Both the position numbers and the translations under genes were made by a program. Below are positions 32,340 through 63,522 of a stretch of 64,000 nucleotides of DNA, one piece after another. The notes beneath the pieces are model-generated. The model saw only the letters and a program-made list of their open reading frames with translations. It did no database searches and had not been told where the DNA came from. Position 1 is the first letter of the stretch. The number at the start of each line of letters is the position of its first letter. Source of the stretch: Dactylellina haptotyla (Eukaryota; Ascomycota; Orbiliomycetes; Orbiliales; Orbiliaceae); NCBI GenBank assembly GCA_031310005.1, contig CM062388.1:2594697-2658696 (forward strand), read 5' to 3'.

Positions 32340-33000
32340 CTTTAATGTTTTACCAAGGTTAGCTCACCCAAGCCGATAATTACATCGGCCACAATGCACG
32401 CAACCATCTGTCTTCGAATTCTTTCTTTTCCACTCTATTTGTTTTTTTTGGTATTGCCACGTTGCTGGCATTTGCGCGGAAATGAATGTTCGTTATCCCG
32501 ACTTTTCAGGAGGGCAAATTGAAAAGCGCATCTCCTTTCCATTTGGTCGCATGGGAAAGTTAAAAATGTGCACTGTCTTCAGCCGCACGGAGGCAAAATT
32601 GGTGTCCGAGTAGGTCTATTCCGAAGCGCGGGAGACTCTGACTGGCTAGAACTTCACGTGGCGTCGGCCTCATTTGCGCTGAACGTAACACCGTCTTGGC
32701 ACACCCCCAAATTGGCTGCTTTAACCACCTGGAAACTAGGCGACTTTTGGGTTGGAATAAAAAAGAAACCACTAGTGATAGACCTTGCCTAGACCTAGAT
32801 CTAGCCTCAAAAGCCCATATACTCCGTTCGGAACACTCCGTTCCAGGGGAATCCTAACCGGTAGTTTTAATGTCGATGACCCCCGGTGTCGATTTTGTGA
32901 TTGGTCGGGACCGGGGTGACCCTCCCGCTTTCGGAAATATATTGTGGTCAAACGCCCCATTGGATTGAAAATCAACACCGGATTTCTGCCAGTTAGGGTC
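32340..33000. other. Intergenic up to the AT-rich block
   Basis: Base composition is normal. No gene is recognised; open frames at 32568-32792 and on the minus strand lack protein character. Confidence 0.45.
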
Positions 33001-33713
33001 TCTTATTAAAAAGTTGGATTAACAGGTTAGGTTAACAGGTTGGATTATTATATTCGGTTTTTAATTGAATGGCTGGTTGGTTAACTAGCTGACCATTTGA
33101 CTGACAACCAAGGCAATATATTAACCCAGCCAGCTAGGACCAAACCGCAACCCCAGCATAGTTGGCAACTAACAAATTTGTCAACACTAAAAATCCGGAT
33201 TTGGTAATGCCTATTGATATTACCACCACCACTATCTACGTTATTAACATCACCATTAATGTTCAGTGTCGAGTGAACACAGCAAACACTGCTAAATCCA
33301 ACAGACCTGGCAAACAGCTGATTGTATTGCCAAACATAATATGGTACTAAATTAGCAAATACATTTGCTAATAGTCAGTTATCACATTTAGTAGTGACAG
33401 ATATTTTAGAGTTGATTCCTTTGTGCCCATCACTAATAATATATAAACAATTCTCCAACCATTTTTGCTGAGTTATATTCTCTTTTTTCTATAACTCATA
33501 CTTGCTTATTTTCTAATTTCTCAACCACAATTCTATTATTATAATGGGATAATTAATAATTATGGTATTATTAAAACCTTATATATATAAAAATAGATTA
33601 TAATTTATATATAGGTATTAAAATTATAGTTATGGTATTAAAATTGATATTATTATGCTTATTTTTAGTTTTTTTGGTTATTTTATCTGCTTTACCTACT
33701 AGTTTCGCTAGCT

Positions 33714-34770
33714 ATGTCTGTCGAGCAATTTTTAACTAAATGTTGCAAAGTCACACTTAGCGCTGAGTATCAAACGATCACGCCTAAGGCTACCACTATT
33801 TTAATTAAAAAAACTAAGATGGTTATTGTGCTCATCACCTAGCTCCACGCCCAAATGACCGAAAAGCTTTTGACCAATAATTTCTACTAAAAGAATAAGA
33901 TGGAGATCTTTTTCCACTTAGATTTTAATGTTGTTAGGCTTAAATATTGCCAATAAAATATGTTCATTAAAAAAGGTAAGCGATCTAGACCTTAAGCGAA
34001 TAATTAAAGATATATCCTGATTACAAACTACCACCCGATCACAATTTTAACCTAATTTAATATAAATATGACCTATTGATTTTGATATTTTCCTTTAATT
34101 ATACAGCTTAATCAATTTAAGCAGCCAAAATTAGAGCCCTCATTTTTTACATTGTTTATGCTTTAAATAAAAATCCATTCAACTTATGCAAAAACTTTTT
34201 TGAAGAGAATGAAATTGCTTGCACCAATTGTTTATATAATTACAAATAGTATTTGGGTGCCACCATGCGCGCTTTTATCTATCCCAGATTAAACATTTCT
34301 CGCCTGGGCAATAAGGTCAAGTATAGTGTTCAAATAGTGCCTAAACTGAAGATTAAGACCACGACCACCACCACCACTACCACCAAACTCACCACTATCA
34401 TTATTAGCAATAGCGATAACGACAACGACTCCAAATCCATTGAATCCAAATCCACCACCACTATTAGTAGTAGCAGCAGCAACAGTAGCAGCTTTAGTAG
34501 TAGCTCCAAGTCTAAATCTGGGTTCAAATCCAATTTGGGAAGCTTTATTGATGAATTGATTAACAATAATAATAATGTTAACAAAGAAGAAGAGCTGATC
34601 GAAGTGAAAGAATCTAACAACTTCTAATCATCAATTACCTTAAACAATAATGTTAATATTGTGAATACCGGTGCTAATACTAACATTAAAAAAAAGGAAG
34701 AAAAAGAGGAGGAGAAGGAGGAAAAAAAGAAGGAAAAGGAAGGACCATTCGCCTTATGTGGTTATAAGTA
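33714..34770 (+). pseudogene. Decayed ORF upstream of the helicase relic
   Basis: From an ATG at 33714 one frame reads as protein for about 350 codons, interrupted by TAG, TAA and TGA at places suiting former Gln, Trp or Arg codons: SVEQFLTKCCKVTLSAEYQT, later FFHLDFNVVRLKYC, YAKTFLKRMKLLAPIVYIIT, then a Pro-rich stretch and a Lys/Arg-rich end. I do not know the family. Same strand as the helicase relic, so it may be another ORF of the same element. The overlapping Thr/Ser-rich open frame at 34253-34627 is a frame-shifted shadow of the Pro-rich stretch. Confidence 0.5.
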
Positions 34771-34870
34771 GGAAATTTTTAAGCGATTAAAGTAGTACTT
34801 TGATTAGGATTAGAGTGAGAAATTAAAAAATAACTATTTTAATTATTATGAAGATAAAGAAGATTTAAAG

Positions 34871-37200
34871 CTAAGTGATGGGGAATAATTTTTTTTATAT
34901 TTTTTTTTAGAAATTTTAAAAATTTTGGTTTTTAATATTTAGTTTAAAAAAATTTTTAAGATATTTTTTCAATAATTAGGTTAAAATTTTTTAAAATTTA
35001 AATATGTTAAATTTACAATATTTTTTTTAGTTTAAAATAAAAAAAAAAAATAAAATTAATATTTATATTTTTAAAAAATAATAATAAATTTAGGTTAAAA
35101 ATAATATCAAAAACAAATGTAAAAATTTCAATTTTTCTAATTTTTAATTTTTGATTTTTAATTTTTTTCAATAAACATTAGTTTCCAAACACGAACAAAA
35201 TAACAATAATAAATAATATAAATAATTCAAAGTCCACCAAAGAAAAACTTCGATCATAGATATAGAAATCTCAACCAAATAATAAACATGGTAGGATGTA
35301 AACCAAAAAACTTATAGAAAGGAAGGAAGGAAGGAAGGAAAAAAAAAAGGAAGAGTAGCGAGAATATAACAATGTAATTAAAGTTAATATAAAAGAAGAA
35401 TAATAAATATAAATTAAAAAAATGAAAACAAAGGAATACAATAATATAAATATAAGATTATGATAAAAATTGTAATAGAAATTAATGATAAGAAGAAAAA
35501 TGATAAACAATCATGTTATAAAACAGAGAAATAACAAGAATAATGAAAAAACAAAAGATGGACTGAAAACCCAATATGGTAAGTTTTCCCAGAATGATTA
35601 AATCTTCAAACAAATATACGATAAAAATATATTAAGTGAGCATTAACAACAAAAATGATATTAACATGAATGAAATAATAAATTGTACTAAAGGTAAAAT
35701 GACAATACTTAAATGGAAAATAAAAATTATTAGATAAAAATGAAAAATGAAAGATGGAAAATTTTATGGTGAACCCAATTTTAATTAAATAATATTGATT
35801 GGGAATAAAAAAAGTTAATGGTTGAAAATTAGTTTAAAGGAACTAATATGGTGCAATGATAAAAAAAATCATATGCATAATAAAAAGATGAATAAATAAA
35901 ATATGGTAACAACAAAAATAATATAACAACAAAAAGCAGAGCATGATGATACAATAACGACGAATAGAATATAGCAATGGGGTAAATCAAACCGCTACTA
36001 ACAATATAATACAACCACGAATAAATATCTTAGAGGAGGCCTCAACCAAAAGACGGAGGTAATATAATGAAGAAAAGAATGATGATAATAATAATATGAT
36101 GACGAAGAAAAGAACAATGACAATAATATGACGACAAATAACGGAACACAATGGCAAAGTGAATTAAACAGTAGCCACTGACAATATAGCACGGCTACTA
36201 AAAGGAAACCAATAAAAAGATGATGGTTGAATGATTGAAAAATTAACAAATATAATATAACAATTTTATATTGAGGTAGAAGTTATCTTAAAAAACATTT
36301 TAATAGAAAGACGACCATCGAACAATTATAAAATAACAAATACAATATAATGATGATAATGATTAACAATTAAACCACCACCAACGATATGATACAAAGG
36401 CAGAAATTATTTTAAAAGATGTATCAACTTTAAAAAACAATTACGAATATCAAGAATAACAATAATATGATGGAGAAAAGAATGGATCAAAAAAGAACAA
36501 TAGAAACATCCAATCCAACTGAAAAAATCAAACGACCACCAATAATATAATATGATCTCAAAAAAAATCCCAACCAAAAAACAAACTTTGACAAAAGCCA
36601 TAAAACACAATATAAGATAAAATAATAATTAAGTAAAATATGTTGGTGCTATTTACAATTTAAATGGAATAAAAACGGCATAAAAACCATAAGATATTAA
36701 AGAGTACAAAAATAAATCCATAATTACTATAATAAAATTGATTTTATAAATGGTTATTTTTTATAGTTAGAATAAATATTAATATAGGAATAAAGCGAAT
36801 TGGATTATATTTACAACATTTTAAACAATAAATTAATATAAGTAAAAGTTTTAATAAAATATATAATATTAATGAATTATAAAAAAACAACATTGTGGGG
36901 GGTATTGATTATCATTATAAAATATTTACAATATTATTATAAAATTAATATTATTATTAATTACCTTTTTTAATTAAAAGTGGGAAAAAAAAAAATAAAA
37001 AAAAAGAAGATAGGATATATACAGATTACAAACTCCCAATTTAAAAATAAAAGATAAAATCTAATATACTCATTTATAATATATAATTCAACATTAAACA
37101 AATCAACAAACAATATTACTGTAAACGTCACAAACCAAACACAAAATTACCAATAATAATACTATAGTATATCGTCTTTTGGAATATTTACCATTTTTTT
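34871..37200. repeat. AT/purine-biased degenerate repeat region
   Basis: The top strand is strongly A-rich with little C or T. A GGAA microsatellite occurs at about 35,318-35,340. Between about 35.8 and 36.6 kb, phrases such as ATAATATGATGACGAAGAAAAG and ACTAACAATATAATAC versus ACTGACAATATAGCAC recur at irregular spacing, suggesting degenerate tandem copies. No protein frame could be read. Confidence 0.5.
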
Positions 37201-37224
37201 TAATTATTTTATTTTTTTTTAAAT

Positions 37225-40200
37225 TTGAAAATTAAATTGATACCACTGTTTGAATCAATCACAATAAATTACCCGCTCATATTCAACGATAAACTGTGTC
37301 AGATTGTATACACAATTTGTGATTACGCCATCATACCAAGTAACCTGGCTGATTACCTTAAGCTAATGAAAGCTCACGGTAAGATACCAGCCAACATCAA
37401 ACTACTGTAGTTAAAAGAGTGGAGGGAGAAGAAGACCAATAAACTTGAAAAAATGGTGAAGCAATTCAACAATCAACTCAAAATATTAATACTAAAAATT
37501 ATAAAGTACTTCCTATATAAAATTTGCACTATTAAATTTTTAAATAACCACATAGTAAAAAAATATAACACCACAAAGTATAAAATAAAGCAGAAATTCG
37601 GGCGACTTAATAAAATAACCGAAATTGTAGCACCAATCGAAAAAATCTAAATATAATCAATATTTAGTGCGAATAGCCCTAATCATCACTATTTCTTAAT
37701 CAGTAGAATACTAAATTTAAAAATAAAAGAAAAGAAAAGTTAATTAACTTTGGGTGGATTGATTAAAGAAGTAACCCTATATAATAACGTAACTTTCTTA
37801 TTTACTAAATCAACTTAGCAAAAGGAAAGGGATTGAGTTAATATAATAGTAAAAAGTGCTAGAAAGGAAAGAACATTATGGATAAACTTAATGGAATAGG
37901 CCAACCATTTGAAGAATCTGTGGTTGAACAAATTAGTTAAAACGGGCACCCTGCTGGAACATTAGTTGACCAAAATCAACCTACTGTCAGTTTATACAGC
38001 TGTACACATCATACTAGAGTGAACAATTGAACACCTAGACATCTTCGGCAGGGATCTAAGGTAGTAGTGGAAGAACCCTAAGCCCAAAAAGTATGTACTT
38101 AGATTGATGTAAAAAATAAGATCTGACTCAGGTTTCGCACACTATATTAACTACTAGTAGAGGTTAATTATATACTACTTATGATTATATTACATAATAT
38201 TGGCGAAATAACTTAGTGAATATAAAGTTACCTTTAGCAAAGAGATTAAAAAATGTTTGAGCGATATTGATAAGTTAATTGCAAACAAATCTTCAAAAAA
38301 AAACAAAATAAAAAATGAAAAACTGAATGAGGAATTTATCGACTGAGTTTTTAAATTTAACATTACCATTTTAAAATAAAAATTCATTAATAATAGTTAA
38401 CATAATTTTACAATCTATTTTATTATGATTTTAAATATTGATGAAAATAGTTTATAATTTAAAGAGTTTAAGGATTATATAACCATATTGATAGGCTTGA
38501 TATATTGCTTATGGTTGATACTCTTGTAGAACACCACCAATAATCTAGAGTTAAGCTTGCCACCGGCGACAAAAAAAGACAAATGAATCATCCCAATAGT
38601 CGAATACTATTAGAGGTATAGATAGAAATAATTGATAAATAGAAATTACATATTGGTAAGCTTAATGCTAAATAATTTGGCTTATAATTTAAAAAAAGCA
38701 ATATTTGTGCCCAATTAGGTGAATTTGCTATAGATGGATTTGAAGATGAAGATTGAATTTAAGTTTAAAAAATGGTTAATAATGGTTAATAATCTAAGGA
38801 AGATGGTGTACACGTTAATAGAAGAAGTAAACAAAATTCTATGATAAAACTTGCTATTTATTAAATCGAAAAACTGAAGATTTGCTGTAAAATTGGATTA
38901 TATCGATGATAATATGGTTTTTGGGGTTAAAAATATTAGTAACATCTTTTTTAATTTTAATAATTTTGTTGAGTTGGTAAAGGATGTGTAATTTATGTAG
39001 AACTAATTGTTTACAAATGAAAATGCCAAGCTGTATATATTAAACAATTTTAAATAATTAACCTTTAAGAATTTGGACTTTAAGTGATACAATAGATTGG
39101 TTGATAATTTTCTGGATAAGTTATTTGTACTGGTTTATATTATAGGGGATTTATTGGCTAGGAGTATTAAGATTAATTGTATTTATTACTAAGATGGGCT
39201 TTTAATAAATAGAAATGTTTTTATTATTAGTAATAAAATCATGTTTATTTTATAATACTATAAGGGGATAGTATTGATTGATTAAATGAAAATGGTATTT
39301 AAGATGTTATTGAAAAAAGTAGGAGAGCTGGTGGCAACATATTTATGATATATTAAATTATTTATTGATGTTTTAAATAAAATATACCATGAGGATAGAT
39401 TAAAATTAAACTACTTTTAGAAGAATAACAAAAATAAATACTGGTTTAATTATTGTATATATAAAGTACTCAAGGAGGTGATTAAAAGGAGCCTAGGTAT
39501 CAAATTAAATATATAATTGTATTGGTATGTCGCAATAACGTTTAATAAGAATATTATACATTATAATAAATTTATAAATAAATAGTTTAAAAACTTTAAT
39601 AGTAAAAATTTTATACTAAATGAGAAAGATAAGGTTGAGGGTAAGAATGTGGATTAAATAGTGGTAGCACTGCAAACCAATTATAATATATGTAATCAAA
39701 TAAATTATTATGGTATAACAGCAAACTTGGTGTTCAAGCTAACGTCTAATTTGTTGGAGCTATTTAATAGAGTAAACAAAGAATAACATTGATTTTTGGA
39801 ACTCAAATTAAAAAAAAAGTAGAATGTTAAAAAATATAAACAATAAAAATTTTTAATTAATATTAATTATATGGTGATGGAAGGTAAGATTATTTTAAAG
39901 CCAAAATAATTATACACCTTTAATAATTAAAAAAAAAATATCACCCAAAAAAAAGCACTGATATGAAAATGATTGGAAACAGGAATTGCATAAATTAATA
40001 TTATAAAGAGATAGTGATTGATGATGGAACTCAAAACAATAGGATTTAAAATGATGGTTGACGCTTATAGTGCAATTACCATTGTGGGGTATTAGATGAG
40101 TATTGATTTTAACGATAAGCTGGACTAGAAAATGGTGGCGTATGGTACCCTTAGGAAAAAATTCGGTTATTAAATTTTTAAATTAATAAAATAGTTTTAA

Positions 40201-41880
40201 GGTATAATGGTGGTTTTGGAATAATAGTTGCTAATGGTCACAATCCTATCTATAGGTGGGGGTAAGAGTCTGCTCTGAATACTATCAACGGTGCGGGATT
40301 GGGAGGGCATAACAGTTGTAATAGTACCATATATTAGCCTGGCTAGGAACCTTATTAAACAGTATAAAAAAATCAGGTTGAAAATAATTTTTTAACAATC
40401 TAGTAAGCAACTGATAACCAAATAGGTGATAATTATAATAGTGGAAAATACAGTAGACTTAATATAAAAAAAGATAAATTAGTTCTAAATGTTTTTCTAT
40501 TATCTTTTAATATTGAAAATCAACAATTTATTTAATTGTATAATTATTGATAAATGCTATATAGTGGTGATTGAACAAATGTTCCAAAAAATAATATACA
40601 ATTTGTACTATATTGTGGCGTTGGGAGTGCCTACACTATTTACAACAACAATACTGCCTCCACATATGAGATAGGCATTTAAGTAAATATTAAAGCTAAC
40701 CAAAAGGCTAGTTCAATATATCAAAGCTAGGAACATTTATATAAATATAAGTATAAATATAATAAACTACAAAAACGAACAGATTATCATAACAATATGC
40801 AAATTGGTTAGAAAACATACAATAAAACTCCAACTAAAATAAAAAATTGTGGTATATATGTAGACAAAAAGGGAAACTATCACATTAATTGGATTAAAAA
40901 TATTGAACTATAAAGGCTACTATAGTAAAATGATGGATACAAAAAAGGATTTAGCGCTGGAAAAATAGAAATGAACAAAATAAATTTTTTTAGTAGTGAT
41001 AATGGTTTTTGGTTGTGATATAGATTACTCAGGTATAGTAAAAATGATATATATTAGGATATTGTACAGCCTAATCAACTACGTGCAGGAAAGCAGTAAA
41101 GTGGAATAGCACAAAGCAATAATATAATTAATTATAATAGTGGAAGAATAAAAGTTAAAATTGGTTGAAGATTTAAAAAAAATGGTGGATGTAAAATTTT
41201 CAATATATAATAAATAGTACCTAAGCAAAATAATGTAAACAAAGGATTGCCAAATAGTACTTATCTCAAAATTCCTAAATGGGTGTGATAAAATGGACTG
41301 TGCAAAGCTGAAGGCTAATTTATATGATAATTATTCAATTATAGAGGTGGGATGGTAGAAAGACTGTACCAAAAAAAAATGACAATCAATGGAAACTTGC
41401 AAAAGCAGCATCCACAATATTAACATTAATGCCTTAATTATATGAAAATAAAAAATAACACTGTTGTTAAGGCCAGATTAAATAAAATTTATACTCAATT
41501 AATTAATTGAAAATTACATAATATACAAACTAAAAAATAAAAAGAAGGATAATTGGCAACAACATAAAATGATGCACTGCAGCAGATTGTAGAAGTGGAA
41601 CTTCAACGTAATCACAAAACTAAACTGATAGATTAAGTGGTTGAGTAATTGGGGCTACTGCTGGACATACAAACTACTGACGGACATCTGCAATAAAACG
41701 AACTTGAAGAGGGGGAAAAAAAAAAACTACAATTTCAAGTAAATACGGATTGTTCAGTAGAAGGGGTTCAACTACCCAAACTAACTAACAAAAAAAATAA
41801 GCGAACAATTATACAAACTATGGGCGATAAATGTATTTGACATAATAGATATATTCAGTTAAAAATTTATAATAATGTAA
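37225..41880 (+). pseudogene. RIP-decayed DUF3505-RecQ helicase (telomere-linked-helicase type)
   Basis: One frame is kept for about 1,550 codons; the landmark positions 37225, 39241, 40252, 41077 and 41761 differ by multiples of three. The N-terminal open part (SITINYPLIFNDKLCQIVYT, CDYAIIPSNLADYL) matches a DUF3505 domain. A middle part (YYKGIVLID, LLKKVGELVATYL) matches the region before the helicase in these proteins. Helicase motifs follow: I, SIGGGKSLL at 40,252-40,278; Ia, VVIVPYISLARNLI; II, IIIDKCY for DECH at 40,540-40,560; III, TTTILPP; V/VI, CDIDYSG and YVQESSKVE near 41,080-41,106. Stops sit where Gln or Trp is expected, and Glu codons have become Lys, as C-to-T/G-to-A mutation predicts. 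It cannot encode a working helicase. Related intact genes are multicopy, often subtelomeric. Confidence 0.8.
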
Positions 41881-41891
41881 TAACAAAAAAA

Positions 41892-41906
41892 GGGGGGGGG
41901 GGGGGG
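41892..41906. repeat. G15 homopolymer
   Basis: Fifteen consecutive G residues flanked by A runs, just past the end of the helicase frame, in DNA otherwise almost free of G runs. Confidence 0.9.
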
Positions 41907-43330
41907 AAAAAGCATTATCGTTTCTTATATTATTAATATTTTTGGTAGGAGTTTTGTTACATATTCACTTTGGGCATTTTAATATTTTATTTGAAATAAA
42001 AGTTTTGTTATATTTTTTTTATAATCAAGGCATTTTCAATAAAAGTTAACATATAATAAAATTTATTTTTTTAGACAAAAAGATTAAGAAAACAATAAAA
42101 AAATACAATGGGAGTAGGAAACAAAAATCAAAAATTTTTATTTTATTTTTTAAAAATTTACAATAATATTTTTTTTTTTTCTTTTTTAACCGTCACGAAT
42201 GTAAGAACGAAGTTATATCACAATAAAAAAAACAAAAACCCGATCAAAAAAATAATGATGGAAGATAAATTTGATTGTGCATACAACACAACGAAGAGCA
42301 AAAGCGATCAAAGAAACAATTCAATCAAAAAAAAAACCATAAAAAATAGGTTACAGACAAAAAACAAAAAAACAAAAATAAAAAAAAAAATAAAATAAAA
42401 GTATAAAATATAAGATACAATTGTAAATAAAAAAATAAAAATAAGGATATCCTAAAATGTAAGAAAAATACATTGCAATTAAAAAAAACGGAAAATAAAA
42501 AATGACCATAAAAAGCATACAGTAAAAGGAGGGATAAAAGATTTGGTAAAAACAAAGAGGAAAGCTGTTCAAAAAAAAAAAAAAAAATCAAAATAAAAAT
42601 TATGAAATAGAAATATTAAACATAAGAGTGAGATAATAGGATTGAATAATTAACGCAATAAAAAAAAGTTAAGATTAAATATAAAATATGGTAGCAAATG
42701 AGAACAAAAAACAAAACAAAAAAATAAAAAAATGGACAAAAATCACAATAAGAAAATGAAATTTTTTTTTACATTCAAAAAAAAAAATTTTTTTTTCTTT
42801 TTTGAAAAAAAATATAAAATTAATCGAAAAAAAAACAAAAATAAAAAAATAATATTCAAACAAAAACAAAAAATATATTAAAATGATAGCGAAAATAAAA
42901 AAGTGATATAAAAAATAAAAATAACACCGTAATACCATTACATTTTCAAAATAAATAAAAAAAAAAAAAAAAAAAAAAAGAAAGGTAAATTTAACTGTGC
43001 AAAATTAACAATGGGCGAAATAGATGGAGATGGTATTCACATAGATTTACTACAACAAAAGAAAAAGATGATATGGATTAAAGTAAAAATATGGTTGAAT
43101 TGTTAATTTCAAAAGGAAAAAAAAAAGAAAAAAAAAAAGGAAAAAAAAAAGGAAAAGAAAAAGGAAAAAAAAAAGAAAAAGGAAAAGGAAAAAAAAAAAA
43201 AAATAAAAATAAAATAAAATAAAATAAAAAGAAAAGAAGAAAAAAAGAGAGCGCAACAACATATAAACATTAACAATTAGAGAAAGAGAAAGGAACAAAA
43301 TAACATATAAGTGTTAGCAGTGAGAAAAAA
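41907..43330. repeat. A-rich simple sequence with homopurine tract
   Basis: Long A runs, T runs that can pair with them (about 42,765-42,810), and a 93-base stretch made only of A and G at 43,111-43,203. No supported gene; open frames here encode only Lys-, Asn- or Phe-rich low-complexity peptides. Confidence 0.7.
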
Positions 43331-46300
43331 AAAAAGTAGAAGTGTAGTGATATGTACCGACTAGTCGCCTCGAAATGCCCAAGTTGGTTAGCTGTAGCCC
43401 CATACGGTTGGAACAACACAACAAAATATGTGGCTCGAATAGCCCAGATAGCTCGGACGATGAGATTTTGGGGGCTTTGGAAGAGAGGCTCCGTGCGCGC
43501 TGCCCCAAGCTTCCTGGCTATCGGTTTGATAACCTTATTGATGATTGAGCCTGCCTTTCATGGCACGTAGATGTGACTTCGGTAAACCGGATAACTCTGA
43601 AGCTTTACCTATCTAGCTAACAATAGTGTCACATTGTGAGAATGGTACGAAGTTAGCGGCCGGAAGACCGCTCAGGGACGGTCGGGTTCGGCCTCTTTAT
43701 TTGAAAGGCTGACATCTTAATTAAGAAGGACAGCGGCGCCTGGTCTACTTGGTATTGCAGGTTTGGATAGCTGTCAAAGAAGTTTCGGGATCTGGCACAT
43801 ATGCATAGCTTCGAAGCTTCGACTTTTTCCCGAATAGGGAAGTACAACACTTTCAACACGGAGTGTTTACATCACGTCCGGCGGTTCTCCGTTTCCGCCG
43901 GCGTGCCTCGATTTGCGGGTTGGGTCTTTGTTTCTTTCCCAACTTTAGCACCGTAATGAAATACGAAATTTTCCGAGGTCTTATTACTCGCCCAAATTGT
44001 AGCGGCAGACTTTTGCAAGCTTTGCTATAGGAGGGGCCCCCGTATATCGGACAGGGTCAGAGTCCGATCTTTAGTATCCATGGTGACCTGCAGCCGGAAT
44101 AAATGATGACGGTGAATATTTTATGTTTATTAAATGTGGAGAAAGAGCAAATAGTGAAGATGCTTTCTCAAATTGTCATATTAGATGCATCGAGGAGTGC
44201 TGGGATTGGTTAGGCTCCAGGGTCGCGAGCCGAAAACCGATCTTCTTTTCTTATAGCCGTAATGCCTAACTAGGGGAATCTTAGAGCAGGGGTTAGACTG
44301 AGCGGCATATGCATATGCATACCTTGAGAAAAAAGTCCCAGGAAACTTGATAGGCAAAGTCAGATCGTCAAAATCGCCATATTTGCATATGCGCGAAAAT
44401 ACTGATAAAATATGGTATAATTTTGTCGTCAATGTCGCAAGACCACAAGACTCGAATGATCAAAAATTATGAAGGCATTTTACAGCACACAAGTTTCATT
44501 TTCGCCACCGCCTTTATTTCGAAGTCTAGTAAAAGATCTTTTTGCTGAGTGTATTATTCATACGTGGAAATTGTTGAAATCGGGTATTCCCAAAATAAAA
44601 TGGGATAAGTACGATCTTTTTTGGTAATATGGAGATTTAGGCCTCGCGTGATATGCTGCCCCCTTTTTTCGGAACTTCTTTGAACTTTAGGAGAGAGAAA
44701 CTCAACATTGGGACGTCTTATGTAATGACACCGGGTCTCGAGAGCCAAAACCCCCAGATCCGGCCTTTTGGTCGACCCTCGTATCTGAGACTAGAATCTC
44801 GTCAAGCTCAAGAAACTATTGGCTACCACGGTGGCATTTTCTCCACTTGCCAGGAGGAAAAAATGGACCCAAACGATGGAGGCTATTTGCAGAAGATAAT
44901 TAAACTCACCGGTGGATATTGTCTCATAAACAATCCGCGTCGTATGAAGAGTAGACAGGTTTTCGCCAGCAGACGGCCGGGTCTGGATCTGTCCTTTCGT
45001 CAAGAAATTTGTGGGTTTTCAGATCGACAACAGTACAGTAAGCAAAGCATAGACACCGAGGAAGAAAACTTTCGCGGTTTCTTCGATCGACGCCCAACAA
45101 GAGAGATCCCTGGCGGATCATGAGGCTAAGAAAGGCCTGCATGTTATTAAAACCGATATCCACAGGAGATCTGGCCCAGTTCCGGTTCGGATATCTTGCA
45201 CCTCTCCACTATGGTGCTAGTGTGCTCCCAGGGCGAATTAATTGTTAATTGTCGCGTCGTCTGCAAGGTATATCTGCGAATGAAACGCTTGTACGTATGT
45301 ATCTAGAAATCGGACGACCACCACGTGGAATACCGAGTTTGCATATACCCTGGAGGCAAAGGCTACCGTCTTTACAGGGAAAAAAATACCGAGAACCGCA
45401 AGTCCCCTTGGTGATCTTCCATTTTCCTTTACGAGGCTGTTCTCTTGTGAGCAATCACAGCACAGACGGTATTGGTACACTAATACCTACCTAAGAGATT
45501 TAGGTAAGCCTTGACAGATAGATTTTGCATAGCGGGATGAAATTAAAACCCTGATGGCAATGTCTCAACCTTAATGACTGGAGTGGAAAACGGCAGATGT
45601 AAGCGAAAGGAAAGATAATAACAAAGGTACAATTATACAAGCGGAGCAGGAGCGATAGGTTGAAGAAAAAAGAAAGAAAGAAAAGGCAGGCGCGTGGGCC
45701 AGTCTTTCGTTTTCTTTTTCGTTCTGAGTTTCCAACCTGCAGCCTACATGCAACCCCCATGTATGCATATTGGTGTAGAGAAAGAGGATTTATGCGACGT
45801 GTGTATAAAAAATCACTGGCCAAGACCGCGTTCTCGAAGAAATCGCACACCTTTCAGCCCCCAAATGATGTGATCGTTGCCAACACCTACGCGTTGGAGG
45901 GGAAAGGGCCACAAGACATGTTGGCAAATGCGTGCTCCCGTCTTGACTCTTTCTTGTCTGTCGTGATTTCATGGGATGGGCTTTGTTCAAGCAATTTGGA
46001 GAATGCATTGGCAAATGCTTGATATTGCTTGAAGATGCTTGACGACGGGACAAGACATGGACAAGAGATTTACGGTGCGAGACCTGGGACGGATTCAACG
46101 TCATTGCATATAAACTCGAGATTTGGTATGACTTTTGGAGGTATCATAGGAGGATGAAGGATATATCGATTTTACACGAGAAGGAAACATTGCGGCAGTG
46201 GAAGGTGGATCCCCCACGAGAAAGACGCCTTAATCAGCTAAAAGATGGTCATGGGAAGTTCCATTTCTAAGATTTTGTTTTTTGGTGCATGGAGACACGT

Positions 46301-47936
46301 CCTGCAGAAATGGAGTCGAGTTTTGCGACCACGGAATGTGAGTTTGGGTTATCCAAACAGGCCCTGAATTTTTATTTTAGCGAAAGTAACTCTCATTCAT
46401 CTTGGGCCGAATGCGACCCAGGCACACAGAAATACATAAGAGACGGTTTATATGATATTTGAACCCTGGCTGTCTCAGGAGCTAATGCAATGCGTGGAGG
46501 ATCACTACCCTTGAAGGGAAGAAGGCGTTGACTATTCAATTGTTTTCTCTTTATTCCATCCCACCATGGCTTTTATTACCCTGATACTCATATTTCTTGT
46601 GTGCATTTTGGCGTATTTTCTTGCAGGGTGAGATGGAACGCGAGAGCTCGCAGGTATTGTGAGATTACTTACAATAGTTTCCACGTCTCTAATGCCGGCA
46701 CTGTGATCATATGACTTGCTAGAGGTCTAGATGCGGGGAAGCCAAGACCGATGATAGTTCGGTTGAAGCAAGCTGTCCTGCTCCGGCCTTAGCGTTTGAC
46801 TAGTGGTGATACCGTGTTGTGGTGTTTATATCCGTCCACATTTTGGTGCCTCTCGACACTCGCAATGCGGAATGGGAAAAAAAGAAGCCTCGCAAACTGG
46901 CATCCCGCGAGTTCGGCGAGCAGGAGGGACGTGCATCGTCATTATCCAACCGGGTGGTGGTGATAAAATAGCTAATAGCAGGCCGCGGTAAGCAGGGGAC
47001 GATATCCTGTTGGCTCGCTCCTCCGCGCATCTCTCCGCGTGGGTGTTTGTGAGGAATGTCGTTGTCCTGGCCGGTTATTGCGTGCTCGACTGACACAATC
47101 ACGCGGCAAACTGATTGGATGCCCGGCGCAGGGATACCTCCACCCACACCGACGACTCGCCTTAACCGCACCTCGACTCTGCTCGACCGCACCTCGTCCA
47201 CCACCGAAAGTGCCCCCGCCAAGCCGCACTCAAGGCGCCGGGTCCGATGGGACCCTGTGGGGAATGCGTGTGTCCCAGCAGATATCTATCTCAATCGCTG
47301 ATGTCAAGTTGCCTTCCAGATGGCACCTTTCCGCTTCCAGAGGCCCGCAGGAAGAGCTCGCAGGTCGCTAACGATAGGCTGATTGATGCTTTGCAATATG
47401 AGCGAGTATTTCGGATCTGCTCAGGAGCGAAAGGGTTCCCCCGAGTTCTCGCTCGCTCCTTCTCGCTCACCACCACAATGGAGCATGTGGGATCCGTGGA
47501 TCCAGAACTCCGGGTGCACGCTAGTTCACAGATTCAAGCTTAGCAGCTACCTAGCGCGCATGCAATTGTTTCTCCACCAGAAGGACGGACGAAGGAAAAG
47601 CAAACTAAAAAACTTCCGCCGATTAGATAAAAAATTTTGCTGAACTGATTAGCAAGCGGGTCGGGACCTTGTCCCATCCCATCATACCGTGCATCACACA
47701 CCAGCTTAGGAAGCTCCGGATCGCAAATATATATAAACAGGATGTCTTCCCAAGAACCTCATGTGCATCTGCCCAGCTCTCTCACCCATTCCAGCACGCG
47801 ACTTTCTTCCAACTCTGCCTGCCTACATAACAGGAGAGGATTTTATATATATCATTTTTTTGATACATATATATAACCTCGACTAACAGAGCCAGCCCTC
47901 CGTTGCATTACCAACCCCCTCGAAAAAGCCGTCAAC
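43331..47936. other. Gene-poor region of normal composition
   Basis: After the AT-rich block, composition is normal but no gene could be supported. The longest open frame, 44653-45123 (+), encodes 156 residues with no recognised domain. Several overlapping frames at 45.2-46.1 and 46.8-47.6 kb are equally plausible on both strands, as in random GC-richer DNA. TATA-like stretches at 47,728-47,742 and 47,845-47,875 precede the SulP start. Confidence 0.4.
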
Positions 47937-50481
47937 ATGGCTTCGTGGCAGAGAGTGGCCGCCAAAGGGCTTGGTATCAAGCTCGATTCCGACGTGAACC
48001 AAGATGCTGTCACCAGAGGCGAATCTATCCAGTCAACTGATACCTACATCGAAGAGGAACCGACGGTTCAAGAATGGGTGCACGATCATATCCCAACTGG
48101 AAAGGAGTGGGTTGAGTTTTTCACCTCGCTCTTCCCTTTTCTTCAATGGATTGGAAACTACAACTTGCTTTGGCTCACCGGTGATCTTATCGCCGGTATC
48201 ACCGTTGGTTTCGTTGTCGTTCCACAAGGAAGTAAGCAAAGACCCTGTTCCAATGACGCAAGAAATAATCTAGAGATACAAGATCTCCCCAATGATACTA
48301 GATATTTTGGCGCCAAGGATGCATTTGCTGATTCTATACTCCGAATTATCTAGTGGCCTACGCTATACTCGCCCAGCTCCCAGCTGAATATGGTCTTTAC
48401 TCCTCTTTCGTTGGTGTCATGATCTACTGGTTTTTCGCCACCTCCAAGGATATCACAATCGGCCCTGTCGCTGTCATGTCTACCCTTGTCGGCACCATCG
48501 TCCTGAAGGCTGAAAAATCACACCCGGAATTCAGCAGGCCACAGGTCGCCAGTGCCCTAGCCGTCATTTGCGGTTGTATAGTGTTCGCCGTCGGTTTACT
48601 CAGGCTTGGTTTCATGGTCGACTACATTCCGTTGCCAGCTATTGCAGCCTTTATGACTGGTTCCGCGCTCAATATCGCGATGGGCCAGATCCCCGGTCTC
48701 TTCGGTATACCTAGCAGCGTGGTCAACAACCGTGCCGAGACATATAAAGTGTTTATCAACTTTTGGAAACACATTGGTTCGGCCAAACTTGATGCCGCTA
48801 TGGGCTTGACTGCCCTGTTCTTGCTCTATGCAATCCGTATCTTGGCCAATCGCATGGCCAAGAGGTTCCCTGCATACAAGAGAACATGGTTCTTCGTATC
48901 CACACTCAGAACTGCATTCGTTATCCTTCTATACACCATGATCTCATGGTTGGTCAACCGCCACAGGCGTTCAAAGCCAGCTTTCAGGATCTTGTCCAAC
49001 GTTCCAAAGGGCTTCCAGCATATGGGCGCCCCAACCTTGAACGCCGATATCGTTGATTCTTTCATTGGCGAGCTCCCCGCTGCCGTTATTGTTCTACTCA
49101 TCGAGCACATTGTAAGCCTTTGTCCACGCACATCATTTAAAGGGATCGAAATTAATGGATTTATATAGGCTATCTCCAAATCGTTCGGCCGTGTCAATGG
49201 TTATCAGATCAACCCTTCACAAGAACTTATTGCTATCGGCATTACCAACATCTTTGGTCCATTCTTTGGCGCTTATCCAGCTACCGGATCTTTCTCCAGA
49301 ACTGCTATCAAGGCAAAAGCAGGTGTCCGAACTCCAATTGCTGGTGTCATCACTGGTATCATCGTTTTGCTGGCAATCTACCTCCTCACAGCGGTTTTCT
49401 TCTACATCCCCAATGCGTCGCTAGCTGCCGTCATCATTCACGCCGTGGGAGACTTGATCACGCCCCCCAATGTTGTCTATAGATTCTGGCGTGTCTCTCC
49501 ACTAGAGGTCGTTATCTTCTTCGCTGGTGTTTTCGTTGCTGTCTTCAGCTCTATTGAGAATGGTATCTACACCACAATCACGACCTCCTTGCTCTCCTCC
49601 TGTTCAAGGGCCATTTCCTCGGCCGCATCCGCGTCCAAATCGTTCCACCAGAGAATTTCTCCACCGAAACTGTTCCCACTGGTTATGGTGCTACCAACAG
49701 GACCAAGGCCGATCCAGAAATCAAGGGCACAGGTGAATCAACTAACGAGGAGCTCACCGAAGCCAACTACCACGACGTCTTCCTCCCAATCGACCACAAG
49801 GACGGCAGCAACCCAGCCATCAATATCGAGTCTCCCTTCCCAGGAGTTTTCGTCTACCGATTCTCTGAGGGCTATATTTATCCAAATGCAGCTCATTATT
49901 GTGATCAACTCATAAATTACATCGAGCTTAAATGTCGTCGCACTTCCTTGGACAGCTTTGCGCGCCTTGGAGACCGCCCATGGAACGATAAGGGACCTCG
50001 TCACTTGAGCGTCGAGGAAGACCACCGCCCCACACTCAAAGCTGTCATTCTCGACTTCTCGGCTGTCAACAATGTTGACATCACATCCGTTCAGACCCTC
50101 ATTGACGCTCGCAACACCTTGGACAAGTATGCTTCGCCCGACAATGTCGACTGGCACTTCGCAGCTGTTAAGAACAGGTGGACCAAGCGCGCTCTCACTT
50201 CCGCTGGCTTTGGTTACCGCACTGAGGATGTCGAGACCAACGCGAAAAACGGCCGTGGTCCGTGGAAGCCATTGTACTCTGTTGCCGAGGTCAGTGCTCG
50301 CGTAGCTGGTATCGAGGACGTCGACGACAATGGCAGTGGCAGCAGCATCAAGAAGACTGATCTCGAAGTTGGTATCCCATCGCAAATACAAAAGAAGAGG
50401 GTGTTAGTGCACAGCATCGCGCGACCGTTGTTCCACGTTGATGTCAAAGCCGCCCTTTTGGCCGCGCAAGAAAATTTGTGA
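47937..50481 (+). CDS. SulP-family sulfate permease, one frame break
   Basis: Exons 47937-48231, 48354-49111 and 49169 onward join in phase. The product has the layout of fungal sulfate permeases (SUL/SLC26): a soluble N terminus, about 12 membrane segments starting at FFTSLFPFLQWIGNYNLLWL, the SulP signature at [31 protein letters not shown], the IFGPFFGAYPATGSFSRTAI segment, and a C-terminal STAS domain (AVILDFSAVNNVDITSVQTL). It would import sulfate with protons at the plasma membrane. The frame breaks once, between IENGIYTTI (about 49,580) and LLLFKGHFLGRIRV (about 49,595 on), where about five family residues also seem missing. The STAS part then stays open for about 290 codons. A 46-base GTATCT-CAAG intron was tested and does not restore phase. 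Confidence 0.85.
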
Positions 50482-51834
50482 TTTTTGGGAATTTGATTCA
50501 ATGATTTCGTTCAGGGATGGGGCTTATACATATGGGCGTTCGTCTTTTTATTTTTAATATATCATTTCATGCCCTTGGTTCATGTTTTGCAAGCGTATTT
50601 AACGCATGGATTACTCCGGCCAACGAGCCTGGATCATTTTTATCTCTATCATTTGAGCGGTGGGAACACAAAAAGCCACAATAATAATATATAATGGATC
50701 AACATGTATCCATGTTTTTACTGAACAAACTTTCAGCCAATTTCGTAGTTACTTTTCGTAGTGAGATCTTATATAACAGATCTTAGATTTAAACAGTTAG
50801 GAGTTTAGGCTCAATCCAAAGGAGGGATCTCGTCGTTCGGATTGATGTCTATCCGGCGCAGATGCCTATACAAAAGGAGCAGGGTTCCAGAATACGATCC
50901 GTTTGGGATTATGTAAACAGCCTGATAGTTGAAATCATGGAGGTGAATGGGCTCACGAATTCAGCCGCGGTCTTTTCTCACTAAGAATTTTGACCTTGAG
51001 CATGGTTGAGCATGGTATCAAACAAATTTGATATTTTGTGTGATTGAGAAGCCATCTACGCCATTGGGTGGTCCTTGCGTTCCGAATTATATGGTTCGCT
51101 TGGGCCGAGCAGGGCAGGGTGTCTAGGGTTGGAAACATGGTTTGAAACGAAATGTGTCTGTGCTTCTGAGGCACAGTTCAAGCTGCATTTAGGCGAACGT
51201 AGACATCATCGTAGAGCTCATAGAGTTTGGGATTGTACATGTATCCAGTCTAGTCTTGTAACTGTATTTCGGTTTTCTTTGAATGGTGGGTGCTAGTACT
51301 CCGTATGCGTTGCCCCTATCTTACATTTATCCCAAAGCTCAAATTTAAAGAAGCGTCTCAAACCATCCGCATCCTTATCGGCCCAACGCCACTTACTTGC
51401 TTATGTTCTTCTCGGAATCTTAACCATGTGGTGAAATCCCGCCAAGACAGGGCTTGAGCGCGCTCGTTCGGGCAATAATCTGGGCAACTCTTCGTCAGAG
51501 CGGCCGGTTCGGTAGCCAATCGTGCCCCGTTCCGCTTCACCAATATGAGCTGCGATGTTTTTGCCTTATCATTCAGGGGCAGGAAATGAGTTGATATTTG
51601 CGGGAGCCTCGGGTTGGCTGGAGACTGAATTGATTGGCGTTTTGCATCTTTATCTTCTGCTTGAGTTCGATTGAACCTGTCTATATACGGTCTACCTACT
51701 GCAACGATTTATCAAGTAAAACTCAGACCAGAGAGCCCTATCAGGTTAGGATAGCATACTATCAGGGATGGAATTTGTACGGTATCTTTTGGGGACGTCC
51801 CCGCCACAGCCGATAAACGAGACGTCCCCTTCAC
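50482..51834. other. Intergenic, no gene recognised
   Basis: No supported gene. It contains the perfect palindrome GGGGACGTCCCC at 51791-51802 close to the next gene. Confidence 0.45.
51791..51802. promoter_or_regulatory. Perfect 12-base palindrome GGGGACGTCCCC
   Basis: A perfect palindrome with an ACGT core. Part of it (GACGTCCCC) recurs at 51821-51829, just before the first usable ATG of the transferase gene. It could bind a bZIP-type regulator, or lie in the true 5' coding exon. Confidence 0.35.
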
Positions 51835-53305
51835 ATGTTGGACGACACCCAAACTTTGCGACAAATAATTGTCGGGTGGACATTGCATTTTAATGATGTG
51901 CTGGATGCCGACAAGCTGCATGCCTCCTTGTCGACCCTACTCGATATTGGAGACTGGCGAAAACTTGGAGGACGCCTTCGGCTGGTATTTATCCCTCTTT
52001 GGCATTCTGCTATTTATCCGAAAATCTAATACTGTTTTAGAAAAACGGGAAACTGGAAATACATGTTCCCCAGCGCTATACTGAGAGTCGCCCAGCCTTG
52101 ACATATTCTCACAAAACTTCCCTGGTAAACCTGAGGGATCACCCACTGGGAAGCAAATTGCCAAACCCTACCGACAAGGCAGCCGTTTCCATATACGATG
52201 ATCCCATGAGCTTTCGGCCTTTTGTGGCTCGGGACCATCACCCAGAGACATTCGAGGATTATCTCTGTCACGACACGCCAATACTATCTCTCCATATCAC
52301 ATCATTCAACGATGCAACTCTCGTGGCCCTCACGTGGCCACATTGCATCATGGACGTGCTCGGTCAACAGGCTCTCCTAACAGCCTGGTGTTTGGTTTTA
52401 GCTGGCCAGGAAAGTCAGCTCCCACCGCTACTTGGTGCCCGACAAGACACTATGGTTGCCCTAGCAGATGATCCATCCGAGCCGCCTGAAGAGTTCGCTT
52501 TGAAAAATAGCCTCCTCCAGGGCTTCGCTTTTGGGAACTTTGTGTTTCATTTGATGTGGGATAAATTCTGGAACCCACCTCTGGAGACTCATATTCTCTT
52601 CGTACCGAAGCAGTTCATGGATAAGTTGCAAACAGAGGCTCAAAATGATCTTAAGAGAGCCTCGAAGGAAGGCGATAAGGAAACACCGATATTTGTCAGT
52701 GAAGGAGATGTGATCACTGCTTGGATGAGTCGTTTGATTTCATCATCCCTTCTAGCTCCACGACCGATAACGGTGCTCCATGCTGTAAACACACGACTTC
52801 GGTTTCCCGCACTCAAGCAGGCCGCTGGCTTATATGTTCAGAATATGGCGCTAGGAGCATTCACTTTTCTGTCTCCTGAAACGGCTCAGAAACGACTTCA
52901 GGTCGCGCTGGAGAATCGGACGCATCTGATGGAGCAAGCGACAAAGGGTCAAATGCTAGCTTTCCTCCGCCATCTCAGATCATCTGGAGCAGCTGTAGAC
53001 CCGCTCATGTTCTGTGTGGCCCTTCAGATGGATTACTTCTGTTCACCAACTGGGAGAGAGCAGACTTCTTCAACGTGATTGACTTTGGTCCTGCTGTGAA
53101 GGCGGCCGGTGAGAAGAGCGAATTCAGAACCAACGCTCCTGGCAAGATGGTGCATCATCACGCACTGTCTCTCCAGCGTAACCAATCGAACATGAATGTC
53201 GTGGTGGTCCTTGGCAAAGAGCAACAAGGACATTACTGGCTATCAGCTTGTCTGCTACCATCAACCTGGGTCAAAATCAAGGAAAGCTTAACGGACACAG
53301 TTTGA
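51835..53305 (+). CDS. BAHD/trichothecene acetyltransferase-like protein, one frame break
   Basis: Exon 1 (from the first clear Met at 51835 to 51984) and exon 2 (52041 onward) join in phase. The PF02458-like transferase features are clear: LDIGDWRKLGGRLRL then GKLEIHVP at the splice, and catalytic HxxxD in WPHCIMDVLG. A C-terminal DFGPA stands in place of DFGWG. Such enzymes transfer acyl groups from acyl-CoA to alcohols or amines; the substrate is unknown. The frame breaks near 53,012-53,017, where TGTGTG seems to carry two extra bases. Before it the protein reads SSGAAVDPLMF; after it, in another frame, GPSDGLLLFTNWERADFF to the stop at 53305. The true start may lie in an upstream exon, since family members have a few residues before HMLDDTQTL. 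Confidence 0.75.
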
Positions 53306-55909
53306 ATTAAACTACGCTTGTAATAAATTCTTCGTTTTTTCTCTTCTTTTCAACTTTATTCAGATACTGGGCGCCGTTATTAAGGCAGGAAATGAGATCT
53401 TGTATCAATCCGTTGTATTTCTATACCCTCATTTCGCTCACGTCTTTGTTCCGTGGAATTGGATCCTAAGAAGAACCACAACTTTGTAATTATTTTATAG
53501 CTTTCGAACAGTACTATATTGACACATGTTTTATAAGAGATCTGCATGTACGGATTGATAATAAATGGAAATGTTTCTGCATGGGGTGCGGTTATTTGGA
53601 TTGCAGTACCCACAGACGCACTTTACTTTACCACTTGAATTTACCCGATGCAAGACGAACCGCGGGTCCGCATATTGAAACGTCTACAACGCACTACCGC
53701 ATGGGCCGTCTAAATTTTAAAATGTCTCTCTCGATTTCGCAATCTAAAGTCTGTGCACTCTGAGATCTCCGCCTCCCAGCATTGATGCACGTGCGCAAAG
53801 ACCGTAGATGCGAGCTGAATGGGAAAATTTTCTGAAGTTCTCAAAGTATCAAAACCGCACGATCCGCGAATTCAACGAAGCTCAAGGCGCACCTGGAACA
53901 GGTTTCTGACAACACCAGTGCCAAGTGTTTTTCTTTTGATCCGGCTGAAAGCATCGTAATTTATTGTATCGTGGCTATTTCTACGACAGGCTGATAGCAC
54001 GAATAAATTCCGATGTGGAAGAATGGTCTGAATCTTGATCCTGGCCCGAGATAAGACAAGATTCTTGGACCGTATTTCTAAACTGTTCCCTGCAGTGTTG
54101 TTGTCCAGTACTGGCCAGTGAAGGCAGCGCAACCACGAGGGTGCTTCACACCACCTGCATAAAATGTCCCTTGCTTCGTTGGGCATGAGCGATATTTTGT
54201 GCCGTAGCTTCAAAAATTTGGTTCTTTTTCTGCCCAGTAATACCACTCCGAAAATATTCCTTTCTTGGTTTTACGATACCACTATATTATCGAGATTCGT
54301 ATTTTTAACGCCTCTTTAATTTCGGGCTCTCTTGGATTCTCTTCGCCCTGACTGTCGAAATCATGGGCGGCCAACCAACGCCTCTACACACACGATCTCA
54401 GATCTTAGCGAAGAGAGGGGTTCATGCTATATCGCCAAAACCGTGATCCATCGGGCAAATGGCCAGCATACTAGCAGCTATATATTTTAGGTATAGGAAC
54501 TACAACTATAACGTAGATCTGGTACGACCTTGTTTTAAAAGCCACACACCCAATTGTAAAGTGGAGTAGTATGTCCCGCTCTTCCGCACGCCCTCGTCTT
54601 GCTGCCAGGGCTGTTTCCGTCTAATGTTGATACCCTCCCACGGAAATTTACAGCGCCCACATACACACGTCCTTTGGTTCTTTCGAATTTCGCCGAGAAA
54701 CATTCTAATGCATTTATCCAGTAATCTACCGGCTATATGTGATCGCGGCTAGCGGTATTGTTGTCTGTGTTATTCCATTTTATCCATGCGACATCTTGAT
54801 GCTGAGTTACATAAAACCCTTTTTCTTGTCTACCAAATATCAAAGTGAACTTGCAGCAGCTTGAATGCCAATGCACAAGAGAAACGCCACTCCCTTCAAA
54901 AAGCGATCGGTGCGTATACTAAAACGTAACCACGTTTCGCCCGGTATTCTTGAATTCAACTTGCCTCTGAGAGCCGAGGCATGCTAAGCCGGCTAAATGA
55001 TGAAGGGCGTATCAACCATATTGGGTAGGCATGAGAATACGAACGATAGGACAAAAACGAGGTTCGCGAAACTAGATTCATGAAATATCCAAGGGCGCAA
55101 CGCATTTTCCCACTTGCACGAGGTGTTCGGTGTAAATCTAGATCTTGCAAGATAAAATTTTCTGGTTTGTGGAAGAAGAACATCCTCTTTGCAAGCCAGG
55201 GAGGAGGAGGCGGCGTGTTACCCCTCCACTCCCCGTTCGCGGTTATAGAATCACAAACTATGATTCGCTTAGACGGGATGTCTCGTCGAATTTCCCTAGC
55301 TGAACAGACACCCTGGGCCGTTTCTCTCTTTCAACGAGAGTAATATGGGTGAAATGGGTGTATTGCGCACATGCTAGAGCTAGAACGGGAAGAAAATCGT
55401 CACAGGCGATTCAGAATCAAGGAGGTCCCCGGACCAACCTCAGCCTGTCGGGAAGCCAGGGCAGCAAGAGGAATGCACTCGCGGCATCGCTATACCGGAT
55501 TAGTGTGGCTGCATATATCCAACATATCGAAAAGGCCTGACCGACGGGCTCGGCCAAGAGGAAAGACATACTAAGCCCGCCTCCGTTCTACTTGATGTAG
55601 TACAATTTCTCAGAAGAGAAGAAGGGAGGGCGACTGGTCTTTAAAGATAAACTGGGTGGGATCCACCTAGTCGGGCCTCCAAGAACTTAAGCTTCCCTCT
55701 TCTCTTCGTCTCTTTTCATTCTCGGTTATGCAGTTTTAGCGTGGGCGTTCCTTCTGGAGTTTAAAGTGGGTACCTGGTATCTAAACCTTCGACAAAGTCG
55801 TCGATTTTCTATCTATCTACGATATAGTTAGTTGGTCGCAACTTAGACGCCTATATTAATAAATATACAGCCAACAAGGGCCAAATAACTGTGACCGACA
55901 TCGCAAGCT
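53306..55909. other. Intergenic, no gene recognised
   Basis: About 2.6 kb without a supported gene. Short open frames on both strands (for example 54246-53872 on the minus strand) show no domain. Confidence 0.4.
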
Positions 55910-62395: not shown

Positions 62396-63522
62396 ATGTA
62401 TACAAGCAGTAGCAGGTCGCCTCCTCAATCTCGATCTACTTCTCCATGGTACAGTAGATTCCCAGACTTGGACCCAGTTGAGTATCTATCACGAAATTGG
62501 CCACCAGCGATACTTGAAATTGTCGACCCTGAACTTCAAAGGATCGCGTTCTTGCCCAGAAATACTCGAAGTCCTTTGGAGTCTACAGACGTTAAACACA
62601 ATGGCAGAGCTGGATACCTGGGAGAAGGGCTTCTTACCGCGCTCGTCAGTGATTTCTTGTACACTGAATTTGTCGAGTACAGTGATGACGATCTTATGGT
62701 AAGTTCTTCCGCCGAACTCTTTATCTTAATACGCTCCTCCAGTCGTCGTCTCTATTTCTTCCCAGCGCAACAACCGCAGAAGCCCTGAGGGATTTGCGTT
62801 GCTCTTTGTGAACCCGTCTAACTTGTGCGACCAACCCCTAATAGGCAATGCGACAAGCACTACTAGATCCCGTAGCCATCTCGAATCTTTGCCAAAGAGT
62901 CGGTCTTCAATCATATCTTCCGGGTTCCCCTTCAGACCGCCGCCCTGATGACCATACTCTCGCGATGCTATTTGAGGCTTACATCGGCGGTGTTTACCAC
63001 GATCGCGGCCCCAGTTGTTATCAAGACCTAAGGGAGTGGTTCCATTTCCTGATCAGACCATACGCAATGATGTGCAAGAACAACTATGATACCTACGTTG
63101 ACTCTCATCGATCGGCACGCGACCCAGGGTACAGCCCTTCCTCCAGCTCGCGTCATGGACGGGGTTATGCGAGCGGGAACCCTGACTACGCTCTCGAGGA
63201 CCCTAGGATGATCGCGCGACCAGGAACTGCAGCTCCTGGCCTCGGGATGTACGCCACGGCGTCCGCTCTAGACGCACGCGGATCAAGAGCGAGAGGAGAT
63301 TACATCAAAGACCTAAAAGAATACTGCGAGAAACGTCGTTACAAAAACCTAGTGTATCACGATGAAGACAATGGCCAAAACGGCGATTTCATTAGATGGT
63401 GGAGCAAAGTTTACATTGACGGAAGTTTCGTAGGTGAATCAACCGACTGGGGTAATACTAAAAAGGAGGCAAGAGCTCAGGCCAGTAAAGTCGCTTTGAA
63501 CTTTCTGAGAAACCGTCCTTGA
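62396..63522 (+). CDS. RNase III-like protein with C-terminal dsRBM, catalytic residues mostly lost
   Basis: Two exons, 62396-62698 and 62845-63522, join in phase to 326 residues. A Ser/Pro/Arg-rich start is followed by an RNase III-like domain (about residues 35-175) with YLGEGLLTALVSDFLY and LAMLFEAYIGGVYHDRG. A low-complexity linker leads to a double-stranded-RNA-binding motif at about 250-323 (GDYIKDLKEYCEKRRYKN to KKEARAQASKVALNFL). Aligned to bacterial RNase III, the four metal-binding acids E38, D45, D114 and E117 correspond to Gly70, Glu77, Met142 and Glu145. Cleavage activity is therefore doubtful. Possible roles are dsRNA binding, or a structural part like the RNase III-like mitochondrial ribosomal proteins (mL44/mL57). 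No targeting peptide is obvious. Confidence 0.8.

Follow-up and report, generated by a model that had tools for sequence, protein, structure and literature searches.

A telomere-associated repeat block with a decayed RecQ-type helicase frame in Dactylellina haptotyla, probably killed by repeat-induced point mutation or an equivalent C-to-T process

Repeat-induced point mutation (RIP) recognises duplicated DNA and changes C:G pairs to T:A pairs. It has been described as acting on sequences longer than 400 bp that are at least 80% identical (PMC4522978). In Stagonospora (Parastagonospora) nodorum, the subtelomeric repeat X26, which shows relatively high RIP, has been recognised as a telomere-associated RecQ helicase (PMC3017866). 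Similar families in Colletotrichum higginsianum have been classed as transposable elements (PMC5576322), and Trichoderma reesei is reportedly without telomere-linked helicases (TLHs) (PMC4812632). Here, we describe an AT-rich, telomere-associated repeat block (32851..43340, plus strand, the right limit being approximate) in a 64,000-nucleotide stretch of Dactylellina haptotyla DNA, hereafter the window, which forms the right-hand end of contig C10 (2594697-2658696) in an assembly of 39.8 Mb in 11 contigs. The block holds the decayed single frame of a RecQ-type helicase (37225..41880, plus strand; 1,552 codons, stops included), the 3′ end of which faces the contig end. It is very probably a telomere-associated repeat with a TLH-type RecQ helicase gene, the copies of which were killed by RIP or an equivalent C-to-T process.

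Subtelomeric RecQ repeats mutated by RIP have been published before, and the present block is a further member of this kind, notable for the purity of its mutations and their weak neighbour preference. The block shares with X26 the character of a RIP-mutated subtelomeric RecQ helicase repeat, but we found no undecayed close copy here, unlike in S. nodorum, for which 26 putative functional RecQ gene models are given (PMC3017866). Like the C. higginsianum families, it is a long repeat found at chromosome ends in one orientation, between the telomere and unique DNA, and it has the helicase C and DEAD domains; the copies described there are highly conserved and full-length, whereas those found here are hypermutated and gave no Pfam match to DUF3505 (PMC5576322). 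Mycosphaerella graminicola (Zymoseptoria tritici) likewise has a telomere-linked RecQ family low in guanine plus cytosine (GC), with 13 copies, 7 of them full length; its annotation includes a putative 3,480-base coding sequence, whereas the five copies here are broken by stops (PMC4522978). The TLH-containing regions of Fusarium oxysporum resemble the block in being helicase-bearing and in occurring at many chromosome ends in full and truncated form; in that species they are often paired with telomere retrotransposons (PMC12857005).

The original prediction had recognised one frame running from 37225 to 41880, and this frame could be read through all of its 1,552 codons with the stops counted; the repeated unit is larger, extending from 32851 to about 43340. 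In addition to the window copy (W, on C10), we refer to the copies C8, C1, C4, and C6 by their contigs. The frame call rests on the RecQ match rather than on stop counts. In the window copy alone, the match was weak, with Pfam giving DEAD for the motif I to Ia region (40243..40380, plus strand; E value, 0.11) and Helicase_C (40825..41094, plus strand; E value, 0.15), both under the cut-off. The homologous frame of the C1 copy, on the other hand, matched Helicase_C with 49.1 bits against a cut-off of 23.5 (E value, 7.7e-13), and RecQ proteins led its structure search (4tmu, 2.9e-10; 4q47, 3.5e-10; RECQ1, 3.5e-9) among the best 60 of 97 matches. An hhalign comparison of the decayed family with a stop-free RecQ-like frame gave an E value of 3.1e-12 over 337 columns. 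Pfam was mostly blind to single decayed copies, finding no family in two of four and a sub-threshold match in one of four. The frame is thus RecQ-type in that it has a RecQ-like helicase core, as judged by its sequence. Both the C1 and the C8 copy have homologous frames. So do the C4 copy, which is truncated at the equivalent of 41242, and the C6 copy, which is truncated earlier than C4 and shows a one-base gap difference.

At the window locus the helicase is dead, as the window copy has 25 stops across the aligned part of the helicase and, as originally noticed, IIIDK at Walker B, where the C1 copy has IIIDE. The near-absence of indels also held. No gap was found over 2,816 columns (37225-40040) in any of the six pairs among the W, C8, C1, and C4 copies, and one gap in the window copy, in which 69 bases of the C1 and C8 copies are missing (41746..41747, plus strand), keeps the frame. 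The claim that stops fall at former Gln and Trp positions stood only in part. Between 37225 and 41240, 43 of the 79 stops in the helicase frame of the window copy (54%) correspond to CAA, CAG, CGA, or TGG in one or more of the three other copies, but neither the counts nor this share single out the frame. The other two plus frames hold 158 and 168 stops and the minus frames 67, 90, and 123, one minus frame thereby holding fewer than the helicase frame, and the stop-to-sense shares in these frames are 91/158, 73/168, 26/67, 47/90, and 48/123, respectively. An N-terminal stretch with C-x2-C...H-like spacing by eye (37294..37380, plus strand) had been assigned to DUF3505. This assignment stays unproven: Pfam gave no match to PF12013 (DUF3505/OrsD) in the first 125 codons of any of the five copies, the only match in the scan of the N-termini being an unrelated weak one to FAD_SOX in one copy (E value, 0.14), and a genome search for PF12013 found none, but control genomes were equally silent.

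The block occurs near several chromosome ends in one orientation and is a TLH block in this sense. All five DNA matches to the helicase region were on the plus strand, no more than about 45 kb away from right contig ends. When the left 1.55 kb of the block was the query, 13 places were found, 12 of which were no more than 50 kb from a contig end; the inner edge faced inwards in 11 of these 12, at 10 distinct ends (P = 0.003 for at least 11 of 12 in the same orientation, if orientation is random and the places are independent). The outliers of this search were two matches of 126 and 61 bases, and one of the agreeing matches was equally short (67 bases). A search with the distal part found C10, C8, C1, and C4 only. 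Decayed helicase pieces at the left end of C8 and the right end of C2 added two ends to these, and all seven decayed places pointed outward. A purine/pyrimidine word search of 18 contig-end pieces was clear for C9 left (410 words), C1 left (58), C6 right (1,529), and C8 right (8,391); six more pieces had 3 to 4 words, and the reversed-block control had 35 at C8 right and 1 to 11 for most pieces.

The left edge of the block is sharp (32851..32880, plus strand), with four copies sharing the same start (CTAACCGGTAG...) behind unrelated flanks, and the C6 helicase copy begins at the equivalent of 36650. This inner edge opens with CTAACC (window 32854-32860 and three equivalents), a telomere-like hexamer that is oriented opposite to the chromosome end. 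At the right side, the C8 copy reaches the contig end, and the C4 and C6 copies end near the window equivalents of 41242 and 40040, respectively, with TTAGGG repeats close behind both. The C1 copy continues beyond 43206 and is then followed by TTAGGG-like repeats. Homology of the window to the C1 copy extends up to 43206, and a distal tail starts at 43357.

The GC content falls from about 0.45 to 0.18-0.31 across 33-43 kb of the window. Mutations were counted in 8,347 ungapped columns (32860-41240) of the W, C8, C1, and C4 copies; columns past 41240 were excluded because the C4 copy is truncated there and its forced alignment produces transversion columns that are spurious (two bins of 500 bases had 23 and 4 of them). 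Among the columns counted, 3,634 were variable by transitions only and 9 contained transversions. The six pairwise identities were star-like at 74.5-76.7%, each pair differing by 1,942-2,122 transitions and 2-9 transversions, in agreement with the predicted C-to-T decay on both strands. The changes across copies are nearly pure transitions, as foreseen; they compare decayed copies with decayed copies only, and the C-to-T direction is inferred from the low GC and the mix of states. With this direction, the changes appear to be C:G to T:A on both strands and confined to repeats, as in a RIP product. Per copy, 43-58% of recognisable C or G positions were lost, and a truncated fit puts the GC content before mutation at about 53% (a model estimate), compared with 20-26% now. 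It is 0.43-0.48 just outside the left edge in three of the four copies, and in all four the density of changes was lower in the first 500 bases (0.27-0.33).

The following-base preference was weak (CpG,.655; CpA,.631; CpT,.534; CpC,.453), the classes being blurred since columns mutated in all four copies are invisible. Changes at CpG have precedent in the spectra listed in PMC4352252, where the contexts given are CpA and CpT (Botrytis and Sclerotinia), CpG at a very weak level (Blumeria), and CpG followed by CpA (truffle), and where CpG besides CpA is cited for two Aspergilli. The helicase frame of the window copy had a TpA/ApT index of 1.02 and a (CpA+TpG)/(ApC+GpT) index of 1.11, the other four copies 1.09-1.17 and 0.80-1.00, and the unmutated window flanks 0.74-0.80 and 1.22-1.26, respectively. 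The usual limits of these RIP indices are 0.89 and 1.03. By these limits, four of the five copies are RIP-like and the window copy is split, which shows that a single heavily mutated copy can receive conflicting verdicts from CpA-based indices. The C6 copy carries 162-163 transversions and five gaps extra relative to the other copies over 2,800 columns and is, on these differences, assigned to an older branch of the family that is likewise decayed.

These patterns point to a block that reached many chromosome ends, keeping one orientation and the same inner edge as it spread. The near-zero transversions and indels suggest that the four copies were practically identical before mutation. Premeiotic RIP, or an equivalent C-to-T process, then probably struck them largely independently, altering about 43-58% of the C or G positions that are recognisable per copy, and the process may have stopped itself as identity fell to 74.5-76.7%, just below 80%. 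The former role of the helicase was perhaps chromosome-end maintenance, as proposed for other TLHs. The case suggests that multi-copy TLH blocks at chromosome ends are exposed to RIP; none of the close copies in this assembly escaped. As natural replicates that descend from one ancestor and are almost free of other mutation, the four copies offer 8.3 kb over which a RIP-like spectrum can be measured cleanly on both strands, including how far it goes before identity drops under the reported threshold.

The intact relatives that were expected elsewhere in the genome did not turn up as close copies. A search with the helicase part of the C1 copy gave 11 places, of which seven, all outward-pointing and within about 45 kb of contig ends, had 10-29 in-frame stops and four were stop-free at only 19-29% identity. 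Stop-free RecQ-like frames thus exist, but judging by sequence none is a close copy. One of them (C9:2373571-2374635) runs in the direction opposite to a block remnant and is located about 2.7 kb inside that remnant's left edge. It belongs to an open frame of 655 amino acids on the minus strand, with the right end of C9 about 15 kb away, and the part analysed (C9:2373550-2374700) matched RECQ5 (5.9e-15) as well as Pfam DEAD and Helicase_C. A second such frame, of 684 amino acids (C2:4451775-4452755), is separated by about 26 kb from the right end of C2. As several contigs stop short of telomere repeats, the assembly could lack an intact copy. Three C5-methylase loci were found in the genome (C4:1061393, C7:1112643, and C5:386181), the search giving a lower bound. 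One is a DNMT5 relative (7r76; E value, 8e-159), and the other two appear RID/Masc1-like by eye, with Pfam DNA_methylase in both.

Several observations weigh against the RIP explanation. The neighbour spectrum departs from the classical CpA pattern, the RIP indices are mixed in the window copy, and the flank of the C8 copy has a GC content of 10-12%. Pairwise phi values ranged from -0.080 to 0.005, compared with simulated means of -0.064 to -0.101 (standard deviation, about 0.015), and were more than 2 standard deviations above the simulation in five of six pairs; the mutations are largely independent, and some shared changes or site differences exist. Likewise, 36 of the 79 window stops are shared by all four copies, more than the number estimated by hand from the CpA rate (about 23). 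No intact close copy that would prove the direction was among the 11 places of the helicase-part search, the C6 copy being decayed too, and the methylase search, which gives lower bounds, found no separate DIM-2. In addition, the methylase match on C5 holds one in-frame TAA.

If methylated CpG had been deaminated slowly over evolutionary time, RIP would not be needed, and the genome does have a DNMT5 relative and CpG is among the most affected contexts (.655). However, CpA changed as often, with CpT and CpC not much less, and slow decay should have brought transversions and indels, yet only 9 of 8,347 columns have transversions and the six pairs show no gap over 2,816 columns; we regard this explanation as highly improbable. 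The block could also be a telomere-directed transposable element rather than a host TLH gene region, which we consider possible but not the likelier case. The fixed inner edge at four unrelated flanks and the common orientation would fit such an element and resemble what is described for the C. higginsianum telomere-associated elements with helicase and DUF3505 domains (PMC5576322), but no transposition gene was identified, with no protein-family search made of the left half of the block. Since these two readings overlap, both may be true. A TLH-type repeat killed by RIP or an equivalent process is still the explanation that we prefer.

The distal tail of the window (43357..64000), which lies outside the element, is a copy of C2:587310-607998 in the same assembly. 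When 12.6 of its 20.6 kb (43357-50488 and 58502-64000) were compared with C2, 5 substitutions and 34 indel events were found in 12,709 aligned columns. The C4 tail is a copy of C5:493948 onwards (1 substitution and 10 indel events in the 2,511 columns compared), the C1 tail (C1:7742725 onwards) is a copy of C6:1188046 onwards (1 substitution and 3 indel events in 4,285 columns), and in C1 and C4 the tails sit behind telomere repeats. None of the duplicates of tail and source shows a wave of transitions. The divergence, mainly by indels, has the look of unpolished reads and not of natural divergence, and the three tails are most likely chimeric-read misjoins, for which another fungal assembly gives precedent from single chimeric long reads (PMC7500977). 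With the tails misjoined, the block is probably at the true chromosome end. Were the tails real, failing chromosome ends would have captured internal loci, as in alternative telomere maintenance, and the block and telomere repeats would be internal. Three of the five ends with a helicase-region match carry a tail, each from a different internal locus and two of them behind telomere repeats, and captures and interstitial telomeres have been described in Pyricularia (PMC8381367). Sums of open reading frames of at least 150 amino acids, tail versus source, were 1,533 versus 1,244 and 225 versus 225 for C10/C2, 665 versus 596 for C4/C5, and 0 versus 0 for C1/C6; this comparison did not show which side bears the indel errors, and thus did not mark the tail as the error-bearing copy that the misjoin reading would have. 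On the other hand, 19,505 aligned columns of tail and source hold 47 indel events and only 7 substitutions, a pattern resembling unpolished long reads; telomere repeats are absent from all three contig ends, and misjoins have the fungal precedent just cited, so that real tails seem unlikely to us. More unlikely again, and hardly to be expected, is that RIP was nearly neighbour-blind, with CpG and CpA alike and CpC moderately lower, and that three chromosome ends also failed recently and captured internal loci beyond the RIP-dead block; if this were true, the loss of close helicase copies would coincide with chromosome-end failure. Users of this assembly should not take the sequence past 43357 as genes of the C10 end without a read check.

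As for other features, an A/G-rich tandem repeat lies by the distal edge of the block (43111..43248, plus strand), and inverted repeats within the block are AT-rich and 71-80% complementary. An Rfam scan gave nothing at gathering thresholds, and telomere-like repeats within the window were at chance level (3 compared with 4.0 expected, with 2 mismatches allowed). In the left half of the block, one plus frame is nearly stop-free in four copies at window positions 34351-34650, and it translates as a low-complexity sequence rich in Thr, Ser, and Asn. The DNA ahead of the C8 copy (upstream of 3368116) has a GC content of 9-12%, and a part of it is found inverted upstream of the C6 copy, with 83.5% identity in 588 columns. 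C11 (249,811 bases) has an AT-rich start and is possibly the mitochondrial genome.

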